Virus record (IMG/VR): IMGVR_UViG_3300048583_000345
Span: 1 to 35,991 of that record
DNA length: 35,991 bases
Direction: 5' to 3' (one strand)
From: a virus
The position numbers were made by a program, and so were the translations under genes. Of the stretch, positions 7,473-34,689 are shown piece after piece. Under the pieces are notes generated by a model that saw only the letters and a list, made by a program, of their open reading frames with translations, did no database searches and was not told where the DNA came from. Each line of letters starts with the position of its first letter. The stretch's first letter is position 1.

Positions 7473-9116
7473 TTACACTGAGTCGATATCGGCAACAAGT
7501 ACCTTACCGAAGAATTCAGCTCTCAACATCTTCTTCGCATACCTAGTCATAAGACCTTTCCTTGGGGTGAAAGTCTCAGGATCGTACAGAAGAGGAGTCA
7601 TGATCAAAGGAATGTAGGGACAGAAGGCAGCGCCAGTCTCAAGGAATTGGCTACCTTTGTATGCCATCAGGATAGTGTTCTCGTTCATGTATGGGTTAAC
7701 ATACACTTTGTAACGACTATTCAATTGACCTGCTTTATGAGAACCCATTGCGAACTCTTCTTTACTACCGTCTGTATCAGCAGCATATCCAGGGATAGAC
7801 TCGATGATAGTAGCGATAGAAGGAGAAGTCATCAGCACGTTAGCTTGACCACGCATTGTCTTTTTGTGGATGGTACGAGCTACACTTTGAATCTTAGTTC
7901 CAAGAGTTGCGAACCATTGACCCTGGGTGTTGTAGTATCCACCTGCACCAGCAGCGTTAGTACTAAAGGCACCTGTATCTTTGTTATAGAATACGTTGGA
8001 ACGAGCAGACCATACTTCAGTAGTATTGGCATTCGCAATCAACATATCTATAATTTCCAGATCTATCTCCAAAGAGATATATTCGGATAAAGTTGAAGTC
8101 AGTTCGGCTTCAGCATCCATTGACTGGTATGCATTCAAATCCTGGCTGAATTCCGGAGTCCATTTAGCTTTAAGCTTTTTGGTCTTAGCAACAACGGCCT
8201 CAGAACGAAGTTCCACGTTAATCTCTGGGATACTTGCAGAACCTGTCAAAGGACGGGTAGAAAGATCTTCGAAATCACCACGGCTGTTATCAGCTGGCTG
8301 TTTGTGGTAGTACACAGTACCAGCTATGCTAGCACTAGTTGCAAATCCACCAGAACCGCTAACAACGAAAGTCAGAATGTCTGTAGCAGCGTTGTAAGTA
8401 GTAAATTCTGCGAATACGTTAGATTCGTTAAATCCGCTACCTGTCAGCAAGAATGCACGAACACCATTAGCATCCATACCAGACAGCACTATTGATGCTG
8501 TAGGCATACTGATCTTACGCATTCTGTCTGCACCAACAGATCCACTGTAAATACTGTTAAAGTTAACATCCGCAAAAGATGCAGTTGTTACGAGAGTCAA
8601 ACCAGTACCGCTATACTCGTTAGTAGAGTATCCAAAACGACCTGATCCGTAAAGACCGCCCGTAGGATCTACATTCTTTGTATTGGTAGTACCATACATG
8701 CTTTGTCCAGAAGTGAACCTAGCACCGCCAGCCATACCCTCAGGTTGGTTGTTGCCGTACTTAAATTCCAGGAAAAACACGAGACCTGCAGGGAGAGTCA
8801 TCGGTTGTACGCTAACAAACTCCTTAGAGGAGATTTCTGCGAAAATTTTACGAACCAAGGGAAGCGCAACGCCAGCCCACTGTTCGCCTGATCCGGCAGT
8901 AAATGTACCGCCTGTACCTGTTTGAGAAGCCTCAATAACGAGTTGCCTAGCTTGGCTTTCCAGGATGATAGCCATCCTCTCTTTACCATATGCTTGCTTC
9001 TCCAGGTCTTTACCTTCGAGTAAACCAGTCTCATCCCACTTAGTAACCAATCTCTTGGCTTCACTCATGACGGATTTAAAAGGATTAGACGATTCTAATA
9101 GAGATTGAATATCCAT
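7473..9116 (-). CDS. gp23: Major capsid protein (gp23-type)
   Basis: This 547-residue protein builds the head shell. Similarity to T4 gp23 is clear in VSVQPMTLPAGLVFFL (about 101-116). It is strongest across 291-350, where KLKAKWTPEFSQDLNAYQSM and DAEAEL precede a long helix, matching T4's LKAAYSIELAQDL...MDADAEL. The C-terminal GQLNSRYKVYVNPY, MAYKG and PYIPLIMTPL segments also match. gp21 normally removes an N-terminal propeptide. Candidate sites here are E53|S54 (I-L-E) and E62|A63 (V-I-E), the latter close to T4's E65|A66. A Gly/Ser/Thr-rich insertion lies roughly at 125-290. The leader is A-rich, without a Shine-Dalgarno. It follows the scaffold gene and ends at a strong terminator. Confidence 0.95.
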   Translation of the reverse strand: MDIQSLLESSNPFKSVMSEAKRLVTKWDETGLLEGKDLEKQAYGKERMAIILESQARQLVIEASQTGTGGTFTAGSGEQWAGVALPLVRKIFAEISSKEFVSVQPMTLPAGLVFFLEFKYGNNQPEGMAGGARFTSGQSMYGTTNTKNVDPTGGLYGSGRFGYSTNEYSGTGLTLVTTASFADVNFNSIYSGSVGADRMRKISMPTASIVLSGMDANGVRAFLLTGSGFNESNVFAEFTTYNAATDILTFVVSGSGGFATSASIAGTVYYHKQPADNSRGDFEDLSTRPLTGSASIPEINVELRSEAVVAKTKKLKAKWTPEFSQDLNAYQSMDAEAELTSTLSEYISLEIDLEIIDMLIANANTTEVWSARSNVFYNKDTGAFSTNAAGAGGYYNTQGQWFATLGTKIQSVARTIHKKTMRGQANVLMTSPSIATIIESIPGYAADTDGSKEEFAMGSHKAGQLNSRYKVYVNPYMNENTILMAYKGSQFLETGAAFCPYIPLIMTPLLYDPETFTPRKGLMTRYAKKMLRAEFFGKVLVADIDSV

Positions 9117-10415: not shown

Positions 10416-11033
10416 TTAACAAGGACAATATCCGGCATTATTACAAATCAATTCTAATAATGTTTCATCTATTTTGGAGTATATAGATTGCTCTTTTGTC
10501 TCTGCTCCTTCATTCAAATACAGATTTGCACCCTGAGTACTTTCAAAGGATACCAAATCAAAAGTCAGTAAATTAAAATCATCATTAACAGTTACGCTTC
10601 CATCTCCTGATTCATTTACACTGCCCATGCCTCTTGAACTTATTCCTATGGGGATGTTTCTTCTAAGAAGTCCACCAGCTATTCTTCCTGCAGGGAACTC
10701 TGGAGAATCCAGTATCTCTATATCTCCTTTTACATCATCCCCTTCCCAGTATAATTTTTTTATATTGTGAGAAACATTCTTAAGATTTACTACATTGTCC
10801 TGGCTGTGATCTAATTCCCCCAGGGCCCTATTCTGATTAACAAATGTATCAGTATACTTTGTTATCTCACGTAATAAAACTTCTTTAGGATACACCCTAC
10901 CATTCCTATTTTTAGCATTAGCTCTCTGAATAACTACTCCAGTTATTATCATAGGCTTACCCGGCTCTGAATTCAAGGCCTCGTTTATCTGCTGCTTACT
11001 TAGGGTTATAGGATAGTATTCTACTAATTTCAT
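10416..11033 (-). CDS. gp21: Prohead core protease (gp21-type)
   Basis: This serine protease of the T4 gp21 / herpesvirus-assemblin-like group matures the prohead by cutting scaffold and capsid propeptides. It is 205 residues long (T4: 212). Diagnostic segments are VVIQRANAKNRNGRVYPKEV (33-52), LGELDH with the probable catalytic His76, and GISSRGMGS with the probable catalytic Ser132 or Ser133, equivalent to T4 LGELNH and VSSRGLGS. The C-terminal tail is acidic and ends in an unusual NNAGYCPC. Its start overlaps the preceding stop by 1 nt, so it is coupled to the 789-residue protein. It should sit inside the prohead core. Confidence 0.9.
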   Translation of the reverse strand: MKLVEYYPITLSKQQINEALNSEPGKPMIITGVVIQRANAKNRNGRVYPKEVLLREITKYTDTFVNQNRALGELDHSQDNVVNLKNVSHNIKKLYWEGDDVKGDIEILDSPEFPAGRIAGGLLRRNIPIGISSRGMGSVNESGDGSVTVNDDFNLLTFDLVSFESTQGANLYLNEGAETKEQSIYSKIDETLLELICNNAGYCPC

Positions 11034-15379: not shown

Positions 15380-18300
15380 CTAAATATCCTCAGTAATAAT
15401 GTTTTTCTCATCTAACAGGTCAGATTCTTCCTTTTTTTGCTCAAATATCAGAAGTTTCTTTTTTTTATTCTCAGAATAGCTTCTCTGTACCTCTAATGCG
15501 AAAGGTTTTGGCTTGTTTTTATAGGTCAAAGAATTATCAGATTTTAAATCCTTCATTCCCTTTGAACCTAGCGGATCTCTACCAAAGGCCGAGTCATCTG
15601 TTTTAAATATGGATGCTTTTTCTTTGGGCCTTCCTATTACTGCAGGATCATTTTCATCATACCCGTCAGGTACATCTAACTTTTCATTCCCTTTTGCATT
15701 AGCATTGTATATATTAGCCAGGTCGTGAGGAGTACCGTATGACTCTCCAGAAATAGCAGGATCATTTCCTTCGTTTTCTATTTGGTTATATTGGAAAGTT
15801 CTCTTCACATCCTCTATTATCAAGTCTCTTTCAGTGTTAAGCTGATCCTCACTCATCTGGAATATCTTATCAGCTATCCAATCACTTGACATTAATTTCT
15901 TGTCGAGAATATTTGATGCCAGGTCTACCTTTTCTTTTAAAAGAGCTATCTTTTCCTGCTCATATATTATAGATGGGTTGTTTAAACCTAGTTTGAAGTT
16001 TACTAAATCCGCATCCTCATACCCTTGAACGTACAGGTGAATTAAGGCTATCTTCTCTAACTCGCTAAGAACTATCCTCTGTATTCGTTCTATAGTTCTA
16101 CTGAATCTAACGTCCAGAGCGGATATTGTCGAGTTCTTTATAATAATCCCAGACTCCGTTAAAAAGTTATGGTTTTCATTCTTGTCCCAAACTTCCATAT
16201 TGTAGGTGTCTGAGGTGTAATCTAGGAACTCTACGCTAACAACTTTATGGTTGTAGGTTTTTCCTACATAGTTGGATATATCTTCTCCAGCTATTTCTGT
16301 AAATAGTTTATAGGCTTTTCTTCCTACTTTATATTTTGTTTTAAATTCCTTCACTGACTCACACCCTGACATAAGTTGAAGTAAATATTCTTTTCTGACA
16401 TATTTGTGTCTGCCTTTTGTAAATCCTGTGTATTCATTGAAAAACTCTTCAATGTCCCAACCAGAGCTATTTAAAGCATCTTCTAACACATGAATAGAAT
16501 ATCCCATGGCCTTAGCTAAAGTCCTAGGTTTATTTATTTCTGATATACTTCCCTTATACCCTTTAATAAAATCTATTATAGAATCTACGCTAGGTCTTTC
16601 TACCCACACAATACTTTTTTCTCTATGAAGATCTAATCTAACCCCGTTAAATTTATCTTTATAAGCTTGCTTTAATGCCTCTCCGTACTTTTTATAAGTA
16701 GATTTTCCTATATTTCTAAGCTTTTCTCTAGTTTCTTCTGTTACTCGATTCTTCATAAAAGAAGAAATTTCTTCAAAAGATTTAGATTGCCAGTAATTTT
16801 TTAATCTATTTTTAGCTTCTGGATCTTTTTCCACTTGCCTTTCCATATTAAGCTTACCTATCTTAGAAGCTTTGGTTTTATATTCTGCAGTATTTTTTGT
16901 ATTCTTAGCTTTTTCTTTAGCTTCTTTTGACCATATACCGTTGTTTGCATTTTTCACATGAATGTCAGAATGCTCTCTATATGTACATCTTTGCAAGTTT
17001 TCTGGATGGTTATTATTCCTATTAAAATCTTTATGATGTACAACAATCATAGAATCTCTTTTGAATTTTCCATTTTCATCAAATCCATTCTTTTCTATAG
17101 TGCCATTTATCCACTCATCTATCATTTTATGAGTAGGTTGCCAAATCCCTGTATTTGGTTGGTAAACATGTTCATATGGATTTTGTTGGTTTCTTATTTT
17201 CCTGTGCTCCCTGTAGACAGCTTGCAATGAATCCCCATTCTTTAATTCTTGAGCCTCCACTTTTTCTCCTCCGGTTCTAACAAATCCATGATCTGGGGTG
17301 GTTATTAAACTTTCTCCATTATCCAAAGTAACTTTTACTAATTTAGCATCCAGTCTTGTTTTTTTAGCCAATATTACTTTTCCTGGAATTATTTTGTTAG
17401 ACTTTGCATCATAAGAATATACCCATAAATTAGGATCTTCTTCAGATTCAAATAAATCAGAAATTTCTTTTATAGTCTTTACTTCTCCACTAAGCATAGG
17501 TATTTTAGTATCCGGATGAATACATTTTCCGTTTAGCTCATCTGAGTAGTTTAGGAAAGACTTTGGAACCTTTAATGAACCTAGTAAAAGATCTCTTAAG
17601 AACTCAACGTCCTCTATACCTGCATATTCTAGACCTTTAGCAGTATCTATTTTTGTGGTGTTATCCCCAGGCCTTATAGGAATATAGAAATCCTCAAGCA
17701 TGTTTTGAACATTAAACTTAAGGTTATAGTCTCCAGTATCTTGATCCATATACGGAGTCTTTTTCATGGTAGTCACCGTCTTCTGAATAAAGGCATCTAC
17801 TTCATTTGATGGGATGTTTCCTACGTTTATGTAGAAAATTCTCTTTTCCGGGGCCCTCATAATCCTGTGAAGGAGCATGGCATCCAGCATCAGTGTGTAC
17901 TGTTTAAAGTACTTTCTACCTGGCTCAATGTAACTTCTTCCGAATGGTAGATAGTTAGTATCTGTCAGCAATCTAAAGTGGGCTATCTCATAATTTTCAA
18001 AATACTCTTTAGATTTAGATGACATGGTACCGCCACCTATAGCTACTGGATCGTGAACAAACCTTATATATGATGGGTTATTTATGTCCTGGCCTTCCTC
18101 CCGTATCATATCATACACCGATAGAGGCCTTACCATGTATACTCCGAACTTCTCAGCAATGTCCATCTTTAGAAAAAAATCACCATATTTACACATCGAT
18201 CTTATCCACATGGGAAGATTGAATTCTATGTTCAAAACATCGTAGAACAGGTTATACAGGATTCTTTGTATATTTTCATTAGTACTTCTAATGGTTAGGA

Positions 18301-18625
18301 CTTCTCCGGTATCTCCCTTTAAAGTAGCCTCTTCACAAACTATATCTAAAACAGATGCTATTATACCGTCAGTATCCATGGCCTCATAATCTGCATAAAG
18401 CTGCAGTCTTAGAGTCTGGTAATTCATTGTTGGGTTAAACTGCATTCTCTGCCCTGCTTTATGTAGCCGGGTGAATCTGTCTACTAGGGAAGAGGTCTGA
18501 AGTTGGCCAAAACTCTGGATTCTCTCTACATCCATCACCCTCAATTGTTTTCCACCCACATTCCTAACTACAACGTCAGTAGAGAATAATCTTTTAAGCC
18601 TTGGAAAAAGTGAACGATCTAACAT
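15380..18625 (-). CDS. gp20: Portal vertex protein (gp20-type) precursor containing an intein
   Basis: The portal dodecamer nucleates head assembly and is the DNA-packaging channel. The 1081-residue precursor splits into an N-extein (1-367), an intein (368-831) and a C-extein (832-1081). The spliced product would be 617 residues (T4 gp20: 524). Portal signatures include YADYEAMDTDGIIASVLDIV near 77-96, LPFGRSYIEPGRKYFKQY, HRIMRAPEKRIFYINVGNIP and LGSLKVPKSFLNY. After the junction come STISALDVRFSRTIERIQR, matching T4's L-x-x-E-D-I-R-F-S-R-x-I-x-R-x-Q. The intein splits the conserved 'L-N-G-K|S-T-I-S' loop just before this motif. The C-terminal 100 residues are charged and probably disordered. 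It follows gp17 and a free-standing homing endonuclease gene. The ATG at 18625 has an A/T-rich leader with no Shine-Dalgarno. Confidence 0.93.
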   Translation of the reverse strand: MLDRSLFPRLKRLFSTDVVVRNVGGKQLRVMDVERIQSFGQLQTSSLVDRFTRLHKAGQRMQFNPTMNYQTLRLQLYADYEAMDTDGIIASVLDIVCEEATLKGDTGEVLTIRSTNENIQRILYNLFYDVLNIEFNLPMWIRSMCKYGDFFLKMDIAEKFGVYMVRPLSVYDMIREEGQDINNPSYIRFVHDPVAIGGGTMSSKSKEYFENYEIAHFRLLTDTNYLPFGRSYIEPGRKYFKQYTLMLDAMLLHRIMRAPEKRIFYINVGNIPSNEVDAFIQKTVTTMKKTPYMDQDTGDYNLKFNVQNMLEDFYIPIRPGDNTTKIDTAKGLEYAGIEDVEFLRDLLLGSLKVPKSFLNYSDELNGKCIHPDTKIPMLSGEVKTIKEISDLFESEEDPNLWVYSYDAKSNKIIPGKVILAKKTRLDAKLVKVTLDNGESLITTPDHGFVRTGGEKVEAQELKNGDSLQAVYREHRKIRNQQNPYEHVYQPNTGIWQPTHKMIDEWINGTIEKNGFDENGKFKRDSMIVVHHKDFNRNNNHPENLQRCTYREHSDIHVKNANNGIWSKEAKEKAKNTKNTAEYKTKASKIGKLNMERQVEKDPEAKNRLKNYWQSKSFEEISSFMKNRVTEETREKLRNIGKSTYKKYGEALKQAYKDKFNGVRLDLHREKSIVWVERPSVDSIIDFIKGYKGSISEINKPRTLAKAMGYSIHVLEDALNSSGWDIEEFFNEYTGFTKGRHKYVRKEYLLQLMSGCESVKEFKTKYKVGRKAYKLFTEIAGEDISNYVGKTYNHKVVSVEFLDYTSDTYNMEVWDKNENHNFLTESGIIIKNSTISALDVRFSRTIERIQRIVLSELEKIALIHLYVQGYEDADLVNFKLGLNNPSIIYEQEKIALLKEKVDLASNILDKKLMSSDWIADKIFQMSEDQLNTERDLIIEDVKRTFQYNQIENEGNDPAISGESYGTPHDLANIYNANAKGNEKLDVPDGYDENDPAVIGRPKEKASIFKTDDSAFGRDPLGSKGMKDLKSDNSLTYKNKPKPFALEVQRSYSENKKKKLLIFEQKKEESDLLDEKNIITEDI
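16133..17524 (-). mobile_element. HNH-endonuclease intein within the portal protein (464 residues)
   Basis: It begins at Cys368 of the precursor (CIHPDTKIPMLSG, block A) and ends ENHNFLTESGIIIKN before Ser832 (blocks F and G). Block B is GESLITTPDHGFV with the T-x-x-H motif. The terminal Asn and the +1 Ser are present, but the usual penultimate His is Lys. An HNH homing endonuclease occupies the middle, with VVHHKDFNRNNNHPENL at intein residues 161-177. A Lys-rich region follows that probably contacts DNA. The block set looks intact, so splicing and mobility are plausible. Insertion at the most conserved portal loop is typical of intein site choice. Confidence 0.9.
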
Positions 18626-18652: not shown

Positions 18653-19390
18653 TTATTTTATATATTCCCATTTAAATCCAACTGCTGTTAGATTATATCT
18701 TATACTTCTGTATATATTTTCACTAGTTACATTATAGAATTTAGCAGCATCCGTAGGAGATGCCCATTCTTTTATAAAATCTCCACTTAAGGATAGTTGT
18801 GTAACTGGTTTCTTTTTTCTTTCTCTTTGAAGCTTGTTTAATTCAGATATGCCAGTATAGCAAGAATATCCTGGATTAAACCACTTAGAACTATCTTTAT
18901 ACCTCCAAACAAATCCTCCAACAGCTTTCCTATTTTTAATCCCTTTACAACATTTGGTCACAGCTGAGGTGTCTATATTAAGAATTTTGCTAGCTTCAGA
19001 TATAGATTTCCACTCTTTTACAAAAATTCCTTTCATATCATACTGCATTATAGGTATAGATATTTTATCCGCCATTGACTTCTTTGCCTCATCTGTCATT
19101 TTGGAACCTAGTACACCTTCCCCACCATCAGTCATGTTAACTAAAGTACCCTCTTTTAAATCTTGTCTGCCATATATCTTTATAAACTCTATTTCTTTTT
19201 CACAAGCCTCTTCCCAAGTTAAATTGCTGAGTATTATATCAACTTTATATGCCGTCTTATTAACGACAAATCTCCAATGTCTATTTCTTGATTTTTTATC
19301 GTATGCCCTCTTGTAAAAATCGTCAGATCCTATCCCAACATAGAATGGCTCATTCTTGTCAAGTCTAATATGTCTGTACAAATAAGCCAT
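18653..19390 (-). CDS. Free-standing GIY-YIG homing endonuclease with two NUMOD1-type repeats
   Basis: This 245-residue protein has a GIY-YIG domain in residues 1-95: YLYRHI at 3-8 in place of GIY, YVGIG at 17-21, then an Arg (28) and a Glu-rich helix around 61-69. Two tandem DNA-binding modules of NUMOD1 type follow, at about 114-164 (Q-Y-D-M-K-G-I-F-V-K-E-W, ending FVWRY) and 196-243 (Q-L-S-L-S-G-D-F-I-K-E-W, ending FKWEY). It is not inside an intron: the terminase and portal genes on either side are each complete. It probably cuts an uninvaded terminase-portal junction in related phages and copies itself there (inference from family behaviour). Confidence 0.85.
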   Translation of the reverse strand: MAYLYRHIRLDKNEPFYVGIGSDDFYKRAYDKKSRNRHWRFVVNKTAYKVDIILSNLTWEEACEKEIEFIKIYGRQDLKEGTLVNMTDGGEGVLGSKMTDEAKKSMADKISIPIMQYDMKGIFVKEWKSISEASKILNIDTSAVTKCCKGIKNRKAVGGFVWRYKDSSKWFNPGYSCYTGISELNKLQRERKKKPVTQLSLSGDFIKEWASPTDAAKFYNVTSENIYRSIRYNLTAVGFKWEYIK

Positions 19391-19422: not shown

Positions 19423-21003
19423 TTACCTTACTAACCAACTTATATCCTCCATTTGTCCATTTATATTTAATTTGTATGGATTATTTACAGGGGCTGTATT
19501 CTGACTAGGAGCTAAATAAGATGTTTGTTTTCCCATACTGCCAAGAACAGCTCTTTGTAAGTCCACGCCTTTATCTTTATATTGAATTGCACTATCCCTA
19601 AGATACATCCCTATAGCATAAGGAAGGACCAAGTCATCATTATACCCAGTTTGAGCCTGTGCTTTACCATTTTTCCAAACAAATACCTTCATTTCATTTA
19701 TGGTCCGGATAGATCTTATTTTTATGAGTTTTTCCCTCACGTAATTCCTAAATGCTAGTAATACTTCCGGTCTAGTCTTTGTAGAAGTGGTAAAACCTGG
19801 AGTCATTTTAGACATATCGTACTCATAAAATTGAGTCATGTACTGGGTAACATTTAAGGTATCTCCTTTAGGGGAATAGTATATGTTATGGTACCCTATC
19901 TCTAAAACATCGCTCATAGTAGCATGCCCCATTCCTGTGTTTTCCACTATTAAAAGAGCATTATTATACTCTAAAGCGACTCCTACAGCAAACTTAGATA
20001 AATCTTTAGTTTCCATGTCTCCTTTGTACTCAGCTACTTGATCACCTGTAAGTAAATCTATCACTTGCACAGAAGATTTATCAGACCCATCCCCTCTAGA
20101 AGTATCTACGATTACCTCATAACTCCTACCAGCAATAGGATACTCCCATATCCAGTAATCTTTTTGGAATCCCCTCATTTCGAAAGGATCTTCCACATTT
20201 GCAGCATAGTGCTCTAAATCCTCTCCATCGAAATAAGTGTCTCCGGAAGATAGAAAGTCGCAATCACACTCCTGAGAGGCCATTCTTTTACCTAGTTCCT
20301 TATCTTGGTCATCCCTCCATTTTTGATCCCTATTTGGGTGAACATTCCACTTAAGTTTTATAGGGACAAAATTATTGTCTCCCATCTCAGCATCTGTCAT
20401 TATCTGGTGGAATAGACCACCTATTCCGTTAGGAGTAGATAGGATGATAGCCTTTCCTCCTGTTGCCAGTGTTTGCTGTGCAGCACCCCACAATTCTTCT
20501 GCATTTTCTATAAACGCAGCCTCATCTAGTATAAGTACATTAGCAGTATAGCCCCTGGCGCTAGAGGAAGCTCCAGAAGCTGCTTTAATCTTAGATCCAT
20601 TAGATAGTAACAGACTTAGCTTACTATGCTCTATTGAAGCTACTTTTAGCCAAGAGGGCAGTTCATCATAAGCGAATCTTACCTTATCTACAATATTTCT
20701 TGCTTTTTCCTGAGTAGGTGCAAGTGCTAATATGGATTGATCTTTATGAAAAATCATTAACCATAAAGCATATGCAGCGCATAAAGTTGTTATACCCAGC
20801 TGCCTGGACTTTAATATAGCAGTTCTATCATGTTTATTAATAAGGAAAAGGAGTTTTTCCTGGAAAAGGTATGGATTAAAAAGCATCCTGCCGTCAGAAG
20901 TCTGTATGAAGACGTACTTTTTTAAAAAATATATAGGGTCTTGAGCACATTTTACGTACTCCTCCCTCATTATATCTTTTATGGATTTTTGGGCCTCTGA
21001 CAT
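19423..21003 (-). CDS. gp17: Terminase large subunit (gp17-type)
   Basis: This 526-residue DNA-packaging motor protein docks on the portal and combines an ATPase with a headful nuclease. The ATPase has a Walker A variant SRQLGITT (66-73), Walker B VLILDEAAF (156-164) and the coupling motif STPNG (189-193). The RNase H-like nuclease has VIVDTSRGDGSD with Asp300, LIVENTGMG with Glu354, and YNDDLVLPYAIG with Asp466 and Asp467. These are the three acidic clusters expected. Length is close to other T4-like terminases (T4: 610). In T4 the sheath and tube genes 18 and 19 lie between 17 and 20; here only an endonuclease gene does. No small terminase (gp16) gene is recognisable upstream. Confidence 0.95.
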   Translation of the reverse strand: MSEAQKSIKDIMREEYVKCAQDPIYFLKKYVFIQTSDGRMLFNPYLFQEKLLFLINKHDRTAILKSRQLGITTLCAAYALWLMIFHKDQSILALAPTQEKARNIVDKVRFAYDELPSWLKVASIEHSKLSLLLSNGSKIKAASGASSSARGYTANVLILDEAAFIENAEELWGAAQQTLATGGKAIILSTPNGIGGLFHQIMTDAEMGDNNFVPIKLKWNVHPNRDQKWRDDQDKELGKRMASQECDCDFLSSGDTYFDGEDLEHYAANVEDPFEMRGFQKDYWIWEYPIAGRSYEVIVDTSRGDGSDKSSVQVIDLLTGDQVAEYKGDMETKDLSKFAVGVALEYNNALLIVENTGMGHATMSDVLEIGYHNIYYSPKGDTLNVTQYMTQFYEYDMSKMTPGFTTSTKTRPEVLLAFRNYVREKLIKIRSIRTINEMKVFVWKNGKAQAQTGYNDDLVLPYAIGMYLRDSAIQYKDKGVDLQRAVLGSMGKQTSYLAPSQNTAPVNNPYKLNINGQMEDISWLVR

Positions 21004-28013: not shown

Positions 28014-28022
28014 TATAAATAT
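28014..28022 (-). promoter_or_regulatory. TATAAATAT-type element 3 nt from a GTG start
   Basis: Exact 9-mer filling the gap after the 766-residue gene and touching its stop codon. Coding-strand order is ATATTTATA, GAT, GTG (28010). The same 3-nt spacing at two other genes supports the GTG as the real start. Confidence 0.5.
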
Positions 28023-30322
28023 TAACTTTCCACCCTTTCTTCCGGTTTATAGTAGTGGTTTCTAGTATGATTTATGGGTGAAGCAAGCAAAACTGCTGCT
28101 TTTATCTCCCCTTTTTTCTGTTTTTGGAACACATAACTCATCCAAGTCTGTTCATAAGGCCTACTCCAGGTGGTTTCCAGGAAAACTTTCTTATTCCCTT
28201 CCTTGCTAAACCATAGGGGCCAGTTACAATAATGAATATCCCCTGTTAAAAACCTACAATCCTCATGCTTACCCATATGCTCAAATTCTGTTTTCGGGGC
28301 ATTTGGATCTAATCCATGAACCGGGAGCGCTGTTTTATCAGGAAAATACTGCTCTCTCACAGATTGAGGAACATTATACCAGGCCCACTGTTCTGTACTA
28401 TCTCCATATATTTCAGAGAAACTAAGCTTAAGATAATCTAGATCATTCTTGTACATTATCCTCAAAGTCTTATCATACAGATTATGGATATAATTAGTGA
28501 ACCCATTCTTACAAACTGTCTTTACTTCTTCAGAATAGAGAAACATATCATCCTCAAAAAATATGTAATAATCATTGTCTGACTTATCAAAATGTTCAGC
28601 ACATAACTGCCTCCCTCCACATATTCCTATATTATCTTGGTGTATTTCTTCAAACCCATACTCCTTGCATAACTCATCATATTCCTCATCTGTTGTCCTA
28701 TCAGTAGAATTGTTGATAAGTATCTTCGAAGGTTTGAGTAAAAAGTTAGGATCTGCTTTTTTAAAAGATTCACACAAATCCCGAAACTGTGATGGGTAAT
28801 TAAAAGTTAAAACATACACAGAGGTCTTTATGTCATTGTAAGATTTCTTGCCATTTAATAAAGCAGCTGGCTTTTCTTTGTACTCTTTTAACTCTTCAAA
28901 AAAGGGCCATACAAGACCATTACCTTCTATATTGAACTTATACGTCAATTCAGGATACAAATGTGATAGTATAGTAAATAAACACTCATCAGCACCCATA
29001 TACCCTTCTGCTAAAGTAGAATTCATTATAGAATAATATAGATTATTCAAGTCATGAATTACTGCCTTTGGGCCTCCAAAAAATCCCCCTCTGCAGACAT
29101 ATTTTACATAATCTGTATTACAGTACCTTGCCAGGGCCTCTCTTTCAAATCCATGTATTTCAGTAGACCCTTCATACGGGTAAGCTAATTGTATAAACTT
29201 ATCCCCTATTTGAGAAACATAGTTTTCAAGATTATCAAAAACTAAATCATGTTGGAAATATCCCTTATGTACAGTGCTAGTAATCCCCCCATCTATCCAG
29301 AAAAAATATTCTGAATTAAATGGATTAAGTATTGCGGAATCATTTACCATGAACATTTTAGTAAACATCATAGGGTTGTAGTACTTCAACCTAGCTTGTG
29401 GGGATTCCTTTAGCCACCCAACTTGATCAGCCCATCCCGGCTTATTTCTAATCTCCTGTATTTTATCAAAGAATGGATTCCATGTTTCGAACTCCTTAAG
29501 CTCTTTGTAGTATATTTTAGTAGGCCTGTCACCTCTTATCTTTAATACCTCTTCTTCCAGGTCTTTAGGTATCCATACACACATCTGACAATCGCTGTCA
29601 ATTAGTTCAAAAAACCTGTCCTTATATTGCTGAAAATCTCTCTTAAAAGAATCATCTAAATCACCCCTCCCAAGATCCCACAATCCTGTAACTATTGTGA
29701 CATTTTTATTCATACTTATTTCGTCTTTTACTTTTATTGATTCAACTTCCACTGGTTTCTTTACAGCCAGATACCATCCTAGTCTTTCATAAATACACTC
29801 TACTTGAAAACCAACCTCTTCTAATAATTTTATAGATGCTGCAGTAAGTGCATCCCATTCAGAATTCATCCAATTATGAAAGCTAACTGCTATTTGATCT
29901 ATCTTATCAAAATCACCTTTATCCAGGCTATTTAGTAAAGGGTATTCCGACCCTTCTATATTTAACTTCAACACGGAGACTTTGTCAATGTGGTACCAGT
30001 TACAGAAAGTCTTCCAGTTAAGCATGGTAAAAGTTTTAGAACTTTCCCAGGAGTTTTCCTGAAATACAGATGATCCTAGATTTTGAAACTCCAAGGCTGT
30101 TTCTCCATTCATAGGTCCTAAAACTCCTTGAAATAATTCAGTACCCGGAGGTGAGTCTTCCTCAAAAGGATCTATACCTATAACTCTTTTTTTGCCTATA
30201 AAAATTCCGGACCAATCCCACCCAAGACATCCAACATCCACAACACACCCATCATGGTCATAGACTCTGCTGTGTACTGAAGAATAATCTTCTCCTTCTA
30301 TTGTCCTTATTAAATTATCCAT
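28022..30322 (-). CDS. Three-domain sugar-modifying enzyme: FkbM-like methyltransferase plus two glycosyltransferases
   Basis: This 766-residue protein appears to fuse three enzymes. Residues 1-190 resemble an FkbM methyltransferase: CVVDVGCLGWDWS (26-38) as SAM motif I, RVIGIDPFEED (46-56) and SVLKLNIEGSEYPLL (116-130). Residues 208-490 resemble the HtrL/YibB (WlaTC) glycosyltransferase family, beginning VTIVTGLWDLGRG and containing EYFFWIDGGI. Residues 500-766 resemble a GT-A glycosyltransferase, with ILINNSTD, NIGICGGRQL and YYIFFEDDMF (586-595), where the acidic EDD would bind metal-nucleotide sugar. No signal peptide is present. It is the last enzyme of the cassette and lies directly before a Pro/Thr-stalk gene. 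O-methylated sugar addition is inferred; domain calls are from motif resemblance. Confidence 0.75.
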   Translation of the reverse strand: MDNLIRTIEGEDYSSVHSRVYDHDGCVVDVGCLGWDWSGIFIGKKRVIGIDPFEEDSPPGTELFQGVLGPMNGETALEFQNLGSSVFQENSWESSKTFTMLNWKTFCNWYHIDKVSVLKLNIEGSEYPLLNSLDKGDFDKIDQIAVSFHNWMNSEWDALTAASIKLLEEVGFQVECIYERLGWYLAVKKPVEVESIKVKDEISMNKNVTIVTGLWDLGRGDLDDSFKRDFQQYKDRFFELIDSDCQMCVWIPKDLEEEVLKIRGDRPTKIYYKELKEFETWNPFFDKIQEIRNKPGWADQVGWLKESPQARLKYYNPMMFTKMFMVNDSAILNPFNSEYFFWIDGGITSTVHKGYFQHDLVFDNLENYVSQIGDKFIQLAYPYEGSTEIHGFEREALARYCNTDYVKYVCRGGFFGGPKAVIHDLNNLYYSIMNSTLAEGYMGADECLFTILSHLYPELTYKFNIEGNGLVWPFFEELKEYKEKPAALLNGKKSYNDIKTSVYVLTFNYPSQFRDLCESFKKADPNFLLKPSKILINNSTDRTTDEEYDELCKEYGFEEIHQDNIGICGGRQLCAEHFDKSDNDYYIFFEDDMFLYSEEVKTVCKNGFTNYIHNLYDKTLRIMYKNDLDYLKLSFSEIYGDSTEQWAWYNVPQSVREQYFPDKTALPVHGLDPNAPKTEFEHMGKHEDCRFLTGDIHYCNWPLWFSKEGNKKVFLETTWSRPYEQTWMSYVFQKQKKGEIKAAVLLASPINHTRNHYYKPEERVES

Positions 30323-30333
30323 ATAAGTAAATC

Positions 30334-31128
30334 CTATTCGTAATATTTTATGACTTCCGCTAATAGTGCCATATTTTTTTTAGTATCATGGAGCAGTCTA
30401 GGACCAACTATGTTAGGGTAGTATGATTCCGAATTTATGAAGTCGCTCAGAAAACAGTCCTCATTTGAAGGTTGCATTGGATCAAATTTTACACTTAACT
30501 TCTTGTAGTTTATTGGCTCTTCATATGCATACTTTCCTATAAACATCTCCTCGGCATACTTGCAGTAATACTGATATTCCGGCATTATGTCTTTTTGAAA
30601 ATGATTATCGTGTACCACTTTTGATTTATTAAAAAAATCAATCATTATATCACCTTTACCGCCAAAAAAATTACCCATAGTCCAAGTATTCTCATGCATA
30701 TTGAAATCACATGAGATAAATTTAGTCATCTCAGCCAATGTATTAAAGTAAGATGGTTTAAAAAAGTGCTCCAAAAATATGAAATCAGCATCTAAAACAT
30801 CGTCCCTACTCACTGTATTTACAAAAATACTATCTGCATCTACAATAAAAATGTAATCATACTCTTTTTCCAGGTACTCTATACACAAAACTTTCATTGT
30901 AAGAGCATGATAAATATTATGAATTGCCGCATCTTTTCTTATAACATTGACAAAATCTAATCCTATTGGATGATCTACATTGGTTATTGCTATTAAATCC
31001 ACATCTTCGGTAGGAAGAAAGTGTTTCTTAGCACTTCTAAACATTATATTAGCAGTTTCATAGTAGTTGCCTATGAAAAAATTATTAGGATTATCGAAGA
31101 AAAGGGAACAAATTAAAGCTACTTTCAT
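30334..31128 (-). CDS. Glycosyltransferase (GT6/GT8-like)
   Basis: This 264-residue protein has a GT-A fold pattern: MKVALICSLFFDN at the N-terminus and DYIFIVDADSIFV (91-103) with the D-x-D metal-binding motif. MGNFFGGKGDIMIDF follows, then a helix and a C-terminal acceptor-site region (LSVKFDPMQPSNEDCF, then LLHDTKK). The arrangement recalls the ABO-type family GT6, with GT8 as an alternative. It has no signal or membrane segment, so it acts in the cytoplasm. The gene sits between the three-domain enzyme (11-nt gap) and another transferase (0-nt gap). Donor sugar and acceptor cannot be told. Confidence 0.75.
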   Translation of the reverse strand: MKVALICSLFFDNPNNFFIGNYYETANIMFRSAKKHFLPTEDVDLIAITNVDHPIGLDFVNVIRKDAAIHNIYHALTMKVLCIEYLEKEYDYIFIVDADSIFVNTVSRDDVLDADFIFLEHFFKPSYFNTLAEMTKFISCDFNMHENTWTMGNFFGGKGDIMIDFFNKSKVVHDNHFQKDIMPEYQYYCKYAEEMFIGKYAYEEPINYKKLSVKFDPMQPSNEDCFLSDFINSESYYPNIVGPRLLHDTKKNMALLAEVIKYYE

Positions 31129-32094
31129 TTAATTAAAATTTAAATCGGCTGCTCTATATTCACTAAAAGCAACCTTATATGTTTTATCTGGAGCTGTATC
31201 TAGAAAGAATTCGAGGAATAAAAATTTCTTTTCTCCAAATATTGGATCAGCCCCTAGAAATTCATTTGTAACAGGGAAATGCATTTTTTCGTTGTTTTCT
31301 TTTTCCAGCTCTCTTTGTACTACGTCAGTAACATCCGTCAATATATCAAAATTAGAGGATGAGTATCCTTCATCAATTTGAAAAGGAGGAGTACCATACA
31401 TAGCTTTTTTCAAGTATATTTTAGACCCTTTAAATTTATCTTGCTCTTTATACCACTCAGGATACACTTCGCTCAGGTATGGGTTAAAAGAGAAATTATA
31501 CCATTGAAAATTTTTAGGGCCCTCTACATAGCTGTTCAACCAGGCCTCATAATCCCACCTACCCCAGATATCCACTTCTCTACATTTTCTCAAATGCTCA
31601 GATTTGGCCCACCAAAAATTTCCCCAGTACCACCCGGATACGCAAGAGGCACCAGCTGTGTCATACTCATCTAACTTCTCTACAGTTTCTCTCCATTTGT
31701 CAATAACGTAGTACTCTAAAAATTCTTTCCAAGCTTGTATGTTATGAATCTTTAAAGTGCTTATTTCTTTAGACACTGAATCGGAGTATTGATTGCTAAC
31801 TCCCTTTGTATGTAAGTATAATATCCTAGCATTGTCAAAAGAATCAGCAGCTTCCTTTACTTTTTTTATACCCAAGTATTCTGCAGTATTTTGTTCAGTA
31901 TACTCTATAGTAGATACACGGTAGTCTTTCATAAAAGATTCAAAGTTCTCCCTTGACTCCTCAGCTAAATTAACTGTTACGTATATCTTATCTGCAGCTT
32001 CATATAACCCTGATTTTATCATTCTTTCCATCTGCCCAGTAATGACTTGTCTCCAGTTATTTACTAGATAACAATGGTAAACTACTATAATCAT
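31129..32094 (-). CDS. Putative glycosyltransferase
   Basis: This 321-residue protein has MIIVVYHCYLVNNWRQVITG at the start and ARILYLHTKGVS at 89-100. An 'L-Y-x-H-T-K-G' motif of this kind is seen in glycosyltransferases encoded near surface-polysaccharide loci. Later come GWYWGNFWWAKSEHLRK (154-170) and RWDYEAWL. It lacks a clear D-x-D. The stop is directly followed by the GT6-like start, so both are co-translated. The call depends on the motif pattern and on its neighbours, which are unmistakable transferases. Confidence 0.6.
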   Translation of the reverse strand: MIIVVYHCYLVNNWRQVITGQMERMIKSGLYEAADKIYVTVNLAEESRENFESFMKDYRVSTIEYTEQNTAEYLGIKKVKEAADSFDNARILYLHTKGVSNQYSDSVSKEISTLKIHNIQAWKEFLEYYVIDKWRETVEKLDEYDTAGASCVSGWYWGNFWWAKSEHLRKCREVDIWGRWDYEAWLNSYVEGPKNFQWYNFSFNPYLSEVYPEWYKEQDKFKGSKIYLKKAMYGTPPFQIDEGYSSSNFDILTDVTDVVQRELEKENNEKMHFPVTNEFLGADPIFGEKKFLFLEFFLDTAPDKTYKVAFSEYRAADLNFN

Positions 32095-32095
32095 T

Positions 32096-33424
32096 TTATG
32101 CTTTTTTTCTTATTACGCTAGTAATGCTCCAATCAGGCCTTGATCTGTAAATTTCAACAGATTCTATATTATTTTCCAGATACTCCATCTCTTCTCCTGT
32201 CATATAAAAAGATGACATTTTTCCAGTAGATTTAAACTCCTCCAGCATATTCATAGTTATGGTTTTAGTAGGATCTCCCCAACCAAATACTGCTTTTTCT
32301 GGATTAACTACCTCTAGACTGGTGTGCAAATCTTCAAGTACATAAATACCTCCTGGGCGTAAAGTTTTAAACAACTTTGCAAAAGTTATTTGCTGATCCC
32401 TCATCCTATGAGACCCATCATCCATAACCACATCTATGTCTGATAAAGTAGAAACTAGGGTATCTAACTGATTTTCATCAGACTGGTCTAAATATTCTAT
32501 TTTTACTCTGGTCAGATCTTTTCCCTCCAACTTATTCATACAGTAATCTGTAGCTATGTCGTACCCTGTTACTTCTGCACTTTTAAAATAATCTCTCCAG
32601 AGAAGAATAGAATCCCCATTATTTACTCCGACCTCAATAAATTTCTTTACTTCTTTGCATAAAGGCTTGAAAAGATCACTATAAACCAAATCAAAATAAT
32701 GATGCTCATAATGTTTATCTGTAGCATAGTAAGGAGCTATATCCAGTAGTTCCAATCCTTCCGGTTTTGGTATATTGAGCATATCGTAGTATGCTAAATC
32801 AAGTGTTCTGTTCTTTACGTTTCCATAAGAAAATGCATGGAATATAAAGTTTTTATGGTGGCTACTTCTATATTCTCTACCATTCAATACTTCTGGTGAT
32901 ATTATTTTAATAAGATCTTCTGCCCTGGGAGTGGACTCCATAAGGACACCAAAACAAGTCTGATCATGCCAAAGCGCTTGAGCGTAATAGCCTTTTATAT
33001 TATCTGGGCCTCCTTCTAACTCATCACATATATCCCACCAGTTCTTAAGATACTCTTTAGTCCATAAAGAGTTCTTCATTAGAAAGACACCTGCATTTAA
33101 CTTACTAGGACCATAATCTTCAGTACAGACAATCTCTCTATAAGGGATTATAAAAGACTCTATATCGTAGCTGAAGTCACAAACCATAGCATCTGCATCC
33201 AGGAACAATACATAATCAGGATTTTCCTTCTCCATGACTTCCAGGATGAACTTTGGTTTGTACCAAGTAGGCGCTCTTCCTTCTATAGCATCGTATATTT
33301 TTTTGGTGTCTGTCTCAAGGTAATAAGTATATCCTTTATCCTCGCAGTATTTCCTATTAACTGCTTCTACATATTTTCCATATCCGACATTCTCTGTCCA
33401 GTATTGTGCTAGTACAATCTTCAT
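32096..33424 (-). CDS. Glycosyltransferase-methyltransferase fusion
   Basis: This 442-residue protein has two domains. Residues 1-220 resemble GT34-type (galactosyl GMA12/MNN10) transferases: TWYKPKFILEVM, DYVLFLDADAMV (70-81) with D-x-D, and LNAGVFLMKNSLW (109-121). Residues 245-440 form a class I SAM-dependent methyltransferase with FIEVGVNNGDSILLW (262-276), VVMDDGSHRMRDQQI (332-346) and LRPGGIYVLEDLH. This resembles the methyltransferases that modify sugars in antibiotic and polysaccharide pathways. One polypeptide would transfer a sugar and methylate a sugar. It is separated by 1 nt from the next gene in the cassette. Confidence 0.75.
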   Translation of the reverse strand: MKIVLAQYWTENVGYGKYVEAVNRKYCEDKGYTYYLETDTKKIYDAIEGRAPTWYKPKFILEVMEKENPDYVLFLDADAMVCDFSYDIESFIIPYREIVCTEDYGPSKLNAGVFLMKNSLWTKEYLKNWWDICDELEGGPDNIKGYYAQALWHDQTCFGVLMESTPRAEDLIKIISPEVLNGREYRSSHHKNFIFHAFSYGNVKNRTLDLAYYDMLNIPKPEGLELLDIAPYYATDKHYEHHYFDLVYSDLFKPLCKEVKKFIEVGVNNGDSILLWRDYFKSAEVTGYDIATDYCMNKLEGKDLTRVKIEYLDQSDENQLDTLVSTLSDIDVVMDDGSHRMRDQQITFAKLFKTLRPGGIYVLEDLHTSLEVVNPEKAVFGWGDPTKTITMNMLEEFKSTGKMSSFYMTGEEMEYLENNIESVEIYRSRPDWSITSVIRKKA

Positions 33425-33435
33425 TATTTTATTTT

Positions 33436-34689
33436 TTAAGGTAGATAACTTTCTATTTTATCGCACCATCCTTTAGAAGTCGAGTAGGGCCATACTACCC
33501 ATTTAGTTGGTTTGGTCTCAGTATGGAAGGATCTCCACACTTTTATATAACCATCCGGATCATTGTACTTAGAATTTATCTCATTAGGATCAGCATCCTG
33601 TCTGAATATGGTCTCACCTTCTGCATTCTCAAACGCTACACACCAAAACTCATAATCCTTTTCAGGCACCTGGTCATACTGAAGATCTATACAATGTTTA
33701 AATATCTTTAAAAAAGATGCCTCGTACTCATCTCTATTCTCTATAACTGGGTTAGGGGCAAAATTGTTATCTATTGTGTACTGCTGTATTCCCCTAGTTC
33801 TAAACTGCAGCCCTGAATACGCCTCATACTCCGATAAAGTCCTCTCCTTACCAAACCCATAAGGGCCAAAATCTATGCTACATGGACATTCTCCATCCAT
33901 TCCAAACAGGATTCTATTTCTCCTATGGCATTCATTATTTTTTTGTACCCATTCTGGATCATCATCCCATTGCTTTTTCCTACCTCTCCTAGTGTACTCA
34001 TGCCACATAACAACTCTGTGTGGATGAAATAGATCATACCCCCAAGTATATGCCCTGGCGGCTATTGATATCTCCTCTCCATGAAAGTAGTAATTCGGAT
34101 CGTGAGGAACTTCTGTACAAAATTCCCCTAAAGTAAAGCAAAAATGAGCAGAATAGAACCTAGCAGGTATTGGTTCTTTTAAACTTTCCCAATTATGTAT
34201 AGTCGTTGGTAGAAAAAATACAGCTCCCTCTGGGATAAACCTATCAAATATCATCCACCATGGCTCTTGTACCCTCTCTGCAGGATCATTTTGTGGGTTA
34301 TAACTAGGAATATATCCGGTAAGAAGAGGCTTCTTATGACCCTTTTTTTGTAACTGTTTTATCATTTTTATCAAAATAGAGTCCCAGTCTTGTACAAACC
34401 TATGATGGGAATCCATTTGAAGAGTATATTTCTCTCCACCGTATTGCTGCTGAACTGAGTTCCTGGCCCAACATACCCCTTTACTATCTAAGTAGTTTAC
34501 ATCCACTATACGAAACCTATCATCACCCTTAAACTCCTCTAAAGTGTCCCAATCATCTTCAGGGGCATGCTGCCAGCATATCCCAAATCTTAGATTTTCA
34601 GGGTACTTTGCTTTATCTATACAATCTTTTAAGGTGGGAAGAAGCTCTGGATCTCTGTAACTAGCTATTTGTAAAAAAATAGTATTCAT
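33436..34689 (-). CDS. GlcNAc-transferase-like enzyme (GT60-type)
   Basis: This 417-residue protein follows the pattern of the 'Glycosyltransferase (GlcNAc)' family. FLQIASYRDPELLPTLKDCI lies at 5-24, DSKGVCWARNSVQQQYGGEK at 68-87, and YTLQMDSHHRFVQDWD at 88-103 (D-S-H acidic/His motif). YYFHGEEISIAARAYTWGYD at 200-219 is followed by F-H-P...V-x-W-H-E-Y. Known GT60 enzymes in eukaryotes attach GlcNAc to hydroxyproline or to Thr in mucin-like proteins. A phage member next to genes encoding Thr/Pro-rich stalks is therefore suggestive. It is the first gene of the cassette, after a 53-nt gap that holds a weak A/T hairpin. Confidence 0.8.
   Translation of the reverse strand: MNTIFLQIASYRDPELLPTLKDCIDKAKYPENLRFGICWQHAPEDDWDTLEEFKGDDRFRIVDVNYLDSKGVCWARNSVQQQYGGEKYTLQMDSHHRFVQDWDSILIKMIKQLQKKGHKKPLLTGYIPSYNPQNDPAERVQEPWWMIFDRFIPEGAVFFLPTTIHNWESLKEPIPARFYSAHFCFTLGEFCTEVPHDPNYYFHGEEISIAARAYTWGYDLFHPHRVVMWHEYTRRGRKKQWDDDPEWVQKNNECHRRNRILFGMDGECPCSIDFGPYGFGKERTLSEYEAYSGLQFRTRGIQQYTIDNNFAPNPVIENRDEYEASFLKIFKHCIDLQYDQVPEKDYEFWCVAFENAEGETIFRQDADPNEINSKYNDPDGYIKVWRSFHTETKPTKWVVWPYSTSKGWCDKIESYLP

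Follow-up and report, generated by a model that had tools for sequence, protein, structure and literature searches.

The portal gene of a virus recorded in IMG/VR (IMGVR_UViG_3300048583_000345) is very probably interrupted by a mobile intein of class 1 that carries an HNH homing endonuclease. The portal protein is gp20-like, and the insertion separates Gly-Lys from Ser within its tunnel loop. The window, meaning the whole stretch of DNA analysed, comprises 35,991 nucleotides. As an element it belongs with the ordinary class 1 inteins of phages; its set of helper residues is fixed and uncommon. Mycobacteriophages had already supplied examples of portal inteins and of a penultimate Lys (Kelley et al., 2016; PMC5050341).

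The portal gene and its insert

The minus-strand open reading frame at 15380-18625 encodes 1081 amino acids. Its extein sequence matches Pfam Portal_T4 (1.5e-56) and, among PHROGs, phrog_213. Both the sequence match to gp20 and the place of the gene between those for the terminase and the prohead protease/major capsid protein identify a T4-type portal. The order in the window is terminase, free-standing endonuclease, portal, protease, and major capsid protein; Flavobacterium phage immuto has its terminase, portal, and protease genes in the same order, but without the endonuclease. The features are as follows.

19423-21003: terminase
17525-18625, minus strand: N-extein, portal residues 1-367 (Portal_T4 1.5e-56; PDB gp20 2e-20)
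16133-17524, minus strand: intein, portal residues 368-831, 464 aa (Intein_splicing 3.6e-16; TIGR01445 6.6e-11; computed coordinates)
17216-17524, minus strand: splicing domain, N-terminal half (homologue alignment)
17522-17524, minus strand: Cys1 (homologue alignment)
17288-17302, minus strand: block B, T-T-P-D-H (homologue alignment)
16256-17215, minus strand: endonuclease region, boundaries approximate (HNH_3 9.8e-5, below the Pfam cut-off; phrog_7545 8e-6)
16958-17044, minus strand: HNH motif, V-V-H-H-K-D-F...N-H-P-E-N-L...H-S-D-I-H (kept in HNH-bearing relatives)
16133-16255, minus strand: splicing domain, C-terminal half (alignment, coordinates)
16199-16201, minus strand: Asn F:4 (alignment)
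16169-16171, minus strand: His F:13 (alignment)
16136-16138, minus strand: Lys G:6 (alignment)
16133-16135, minus strand: Asn G:7, terminal (alignment)
16130-16132, minus strand: Ser+1, C-extein nucleophile (alignment, coordinates)
15383-16132, minus strand: C-extein, portal residues 832-1081 (sequence, computed coordinates, gp20 alignment)
15380-15382, minus strand: stop codon of the portal reading frame
10416-11033: prohead protease
7473-9116: Gp23, the major capsid protein

The insert matches the Pfam family Intein_splicing (3.6e-16) and TIGR01445 intein_Nterm (6.6e-11); TIGR01443 intein_Cterm and HNH_3 also match, both under their curated cut-offs. The C-terminal junction reads G-I-I-I-K(830)-N(831)|S(832)-T-I-S, with the codons AAG AAC TCG across K-N|S. 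The HNH stretch reads in full V-V-H-H-K-D-F-N-R-N-N-N-H-P-E-N-L...H-S-D-I-H, with the His and Asn residues of the motif present, and the helical segments that follow it presumably bind DNA. AlphaFold2 models were built for the window intein (mean pLDDT 80) and for its mini-intein relative L097 (87.6), and in a fold search each of them matched intein/Hint structures. For L097 the Z-scores were 21.4 with NrdJ-1, 20.6 with Ssp DnaB, and 19.8 with Npu DnaE. NrdJ-1 (PDB 8ubs) and Npu DnaE (4kl5) are the best structural matches and have the Hint fold in common with the portal intein, although they are split inteins from other genes and share less than 30% identity with it. The full window-intein model returned intein/Hint matches and nothing further on the HNH part. 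Judged from these predicted structures, the identification as an intein is far beyond chance. The initial annotation had described a portal intein whose penultimate residue is Lys rather than His. The family matches, the I-I-I-K-N|S end, and the Hint-fold models bear this out; the annotated coordinates and the 617-residue length of the portal after excision agree exactly with those we computed.

The Hint fold, Cys1, the block B Thr and His, the C-terminal Asn, and Ser+1 place the insert in class 1. By sequence, all class 1 splicing residues are present except that Lys replaces His at G:6 and Asn replaces Asp at F:4. The penultimate His was treated as non-defining because splicing inteins that lack it have been published; the first and last intein residues are the only omnipresent ones (PMC7664689). 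Class 3 inteins lack a nucleophile at position 1 and carry the triplet Trp B:12, Cys F:4, and Thr G:5 (PMC5222942). We rejected this class for the window intein, which has Cys1, Asn F:4, and Ile G:5.

The insertion site aligns to approximately residue 393/394 of T4 gp20, with an uncertainty of a few residues, and so aligned falls in the tunnel loop (374-398), which projects into the channel. In T4, partial deletion of this loop upsets the dodecamer number and the completion of packaging (PMC4493910). By analogy, an insert of 464 residues at this position should prevent the unspliced precursor from forming a working portal, and splicing is therefore probably needed. From its sequence, the insert almost certainly splices itself out.

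Two genomic features of the window lie outside the portal gene. The free-standing homing endonuclease between terminase and portal (18653-19390, minus strand) is GIY-YIG-like, carries NUMOD1, and is missing from the terminase-portal interval in L001, L005-L007, and L009. Clustered on the minus strand at 28022-34689 are genes resembling those for glycosyltransferases and methyltransferases (HtrL_YibB with FkbM, Glyco_transf_34, and GlcNAc transferase).

Two intein lineages at one insertion site

Searching IMG/VR with a single protein as query gave three relatives, and a profile gave 20 loci. The identical G-K|S site is occupied by inteins in diverse IMG/VR contigs and in the huge phage LR756508.1. 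A scan of genome contigs for Lys-lineage inteins found none, and the lineage was therefore seen in viral records only. Cys1, the block B Thr and His, Asn F:4, His F:13, Lys G:6, and the terminal Asn are present in all 15 distinct members, as is Ser+1. Members range from 464 aa with HNH down to 143 aa without it, the whole endonuclease region being absent from the mini-inteins in the homologue alignment. The penultimate position, where class 1 inteins have His, is thus Lys in 15 of 15, and it is unchanged among members that have diverged to 37-40% identity, including the mini-inteins without an endonuclease. Our first search patterns (DTYN[MI]EV and W..TH.M) include the Asn at F:4 and not the Lys, so Asn F:4 is partly search-selected and Lys is not. 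A second scan, of the splice junction, accepted any penultimate residue but demanded the terminal Asn, Ser+1, and the portal motif. Its yield consisted of Lys members, four contigs with a sister intein, and two chance matches. In L088 and L092, which belong to the same intein lineage, TGA is apparently read as Trp, since in-frame TGA codons stand at conserved Trp positions of both portal and intein.

The sister intein (L113, L114, L116, and L117) occupies the same G-K|S insertion point, has a related splicing domain, and occurs in HNH or mini form. It ends V-I-I-H-N|S and combines Asp F:4 with His G:6, whereas the window lineage combines Asn F:4 with Lys G:6; one extein position thus holds both lineages. 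Across 38 inteins compared (36 from portals), Asp at F:4 was accompanied by His at G:6 in 16/16 and non-Asp by non-His in 22/22, with none mixed. Repeated covariation of Asp and His was rejected as an explanation: the tree accounts for the pattern by a single change, and the pairing is therefore one ancestral event. DnaE inteins pair Asp F:4 with Ser or Ala at the penultimate position (Ser in Npu DnaE), so the Asp/His pairing is not universal. Cousins within the non-His clade have Ser, Leu, or Thr at G:6 besides Lys. Set beside its sister at the same site, the Lys family allows a natural comparison that is unusually clean; with Asp/His and Asn/Lys lineages in one extein context, it amounts to a natural experiment on the role of the penultimate His. 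Mini-inteins of 143-149 residues occur in both lineages and are easy to express.

The empty site was found in relatives, where the initial annotation had proposed to look for it: 72 portals have it, and the closest portal relatives (L004-L007 and L009) are empty there. The description of a highly conserved loop split by the intein held in part. Seven flanking residues (G366, K367, T369, D374, R376, F377, and R379) are invariant in the 72, whereas the stretch directly upstream of the site is variable and the +1 residue is Ala in 64/72 and Ser in 8/72. Ser+1 occurs in 15/15 Lys-lineage occupied sites versus those 8/72 empty ones (Fisher 1.9e-11, ignoring relatedness), a contrast from which the four His-lineage loci were excluded because Ser belonged to their search pattern. 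Over G-Y-E-K-D-L-T-G-K-[S/A]-T-L-A-A-E-D-I-R-F-A-R, occupied L086 and empty L027 differ solely in Ser versus Ala, and the isolates immuto and Mel-JY01 likewise have G-K-A-T at an empty site. Since splicing requires a +1 nucleophile, Ser probably comes in or is retained with the intein.

Between the window and L089/L094, the splicing halves share 82-90% identity, whereas most extein stretches share 50-64%; the extein near the C-terminal end reaches 69-70%. The window also takes different positions in the intein and extein trees. Given these identities and the discordant trees, horizontal transfer of the intein is the simplest reading of the sequences. The dN/dS ratio is approximately 0.1 both for the L096/L097 mini-inteins and for L089/L094, a rough value with synonymous sites near saturation, and the splicing halves are under stronger constraint than the endonuclease.

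Possible role of the penultimate lysine

In the mechanism that we propose, Cys1 would form the thioester with the aid of the block B Thr and His, Ser+1 would accept the N-extein, and the terminal Asn would cyclise with assistance from the block F His, the 617-residue portal being joined before the dodecamer forms. Lys G:6 and Asn F:4 would represent a re-tuned helper set that the lineage inherited from one ancestor, and the HNH domain would spread the intein among portal genes, carrying the Ser+1 codon along. The penultimate His is known to aid Asn cyclisation, and mycobacteriophage inteins have Lys, Gly, or Ser in its place (Kelley et al., 2016; PMC5050341); an exceptional status of the Lys is therefore unsupported. 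The earlier proposal was that cyclisation must proceed without the usual His. A histidine is not necessarily missing from this step, since the block F His, which can take over, is retained. The mycobacteriophage set resembles the window intein in also being phage class 1, with the penultimate His replaced (by Lys among others) and a portal among its hosts. The window intein is set apart by description only, namely by its T4 gp20-type portal, HNH domain, Ser+1, and lineage-fixed Lys with Asn F:4.

What the Lys does can be read in two ways. It might be non-catalytic, the His having been lost once in an ancestor that already relied on the block F His; G:6 would then be free to drift, and Lys would have been fixed in this lineage through descent or packing. 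We give this reading an even chance. The Ser, Leu, and Thr of the cousins favour it, as do the published inteins that splice without the penultimate His and the capacity of the block F His to substitute (PMC5050341), whereas the invariance of Lys in 15 members down to 37-40% identity speaks against it. It is possible, although we hold this only tentatively, that Asn F:4 and Lys G:6 together make up a selected active site of class 1 in its own right, with Lys acting directly in Asn cyclisation, and that this site is sister to the Asp/His arrangement found at the same portal position in other phages.

The suggestion that regulated splicing gates portal assembly is unsupported. Slow or conditional splicing that times assembly would suit an insert in the tunnel loop, given the effects of deleting that loop in T4 (PMC4493910), and a change of the penultimate residue altered the splicing rate of a mycobacteriophage intein (PMC5050341). 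We nevertheless regard it as very unlikely: no condition-sensing feature was seen in the insert, sporadic occupancy and empty sites in near relatives fit a dispensable mobile element, and the published RDF intein splices completely with its native non-His residue and is slowed by His. A further alternative is a decayed intein that has lost splicing or is limited to cleavage, the working portal coming from another gene. It would account for the atypical residues at F:4 and G:6, and a second portal could lie beyond the window, since this virus record of 36 kb is possibly a fragment. This alternative is highly improbable, as the frame is open throughout, the catalytic residues are conserved, dN/dS is low, mini-inteins have been retained after loss of the endonuclease, and no second portal gene was found among the window proteins scanned.

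Other inteins of these portals

The initial annotation considered a portal to be a less usual intein host, a view that finds no support in this group. At least seven intein sites occur in the portal gene (near extein residues 89, 105, 144, 231, 244, 317, and 367), with up to three inteins at once in one portal (L002, L084, L090, and L096), and portal inteins of mycobacteriophages (PORT, cluster C1) were described in 2016 (Kelley et al., 2016; PMC5050341). In these phages the T4-like portal gene is an intein hot spot, and its annotation can be broken by inteins. None of the three inteins in the gp20-like portal at L099 1-3538 has a penultimate His; they end F-N|S, K-N|S, and T-N|S. At L084 1114-2895 (LR756508.1), a LAGLIDADG intein lies in a small gene beside the huge-phage portal with three inteins.

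Two of these sites, those near extein residues 231 and 367 (L002, L093, and L094), are G-K|S, as at P-loop intein sites, where insertion is likewise directly after G-K and before Ser/Thr. Unlike those, the portal insertion site is not in a P-loop. The G-K|S portal sites may have originated when a P-loop intein was transferred ectopically. The inteins near residue 317 (L095, L096, and L088) combine Pro at position 1 with Cys F:4, lack the class 3 Trp B:12 and Thr G:5, and terminate in K-N|S or L-N|S; judging from their sequences, a class 3-like mechanism may have arisen a second time here. Their sister at another portal site (L090 and L009) has both Cys1 and Cys F:4.
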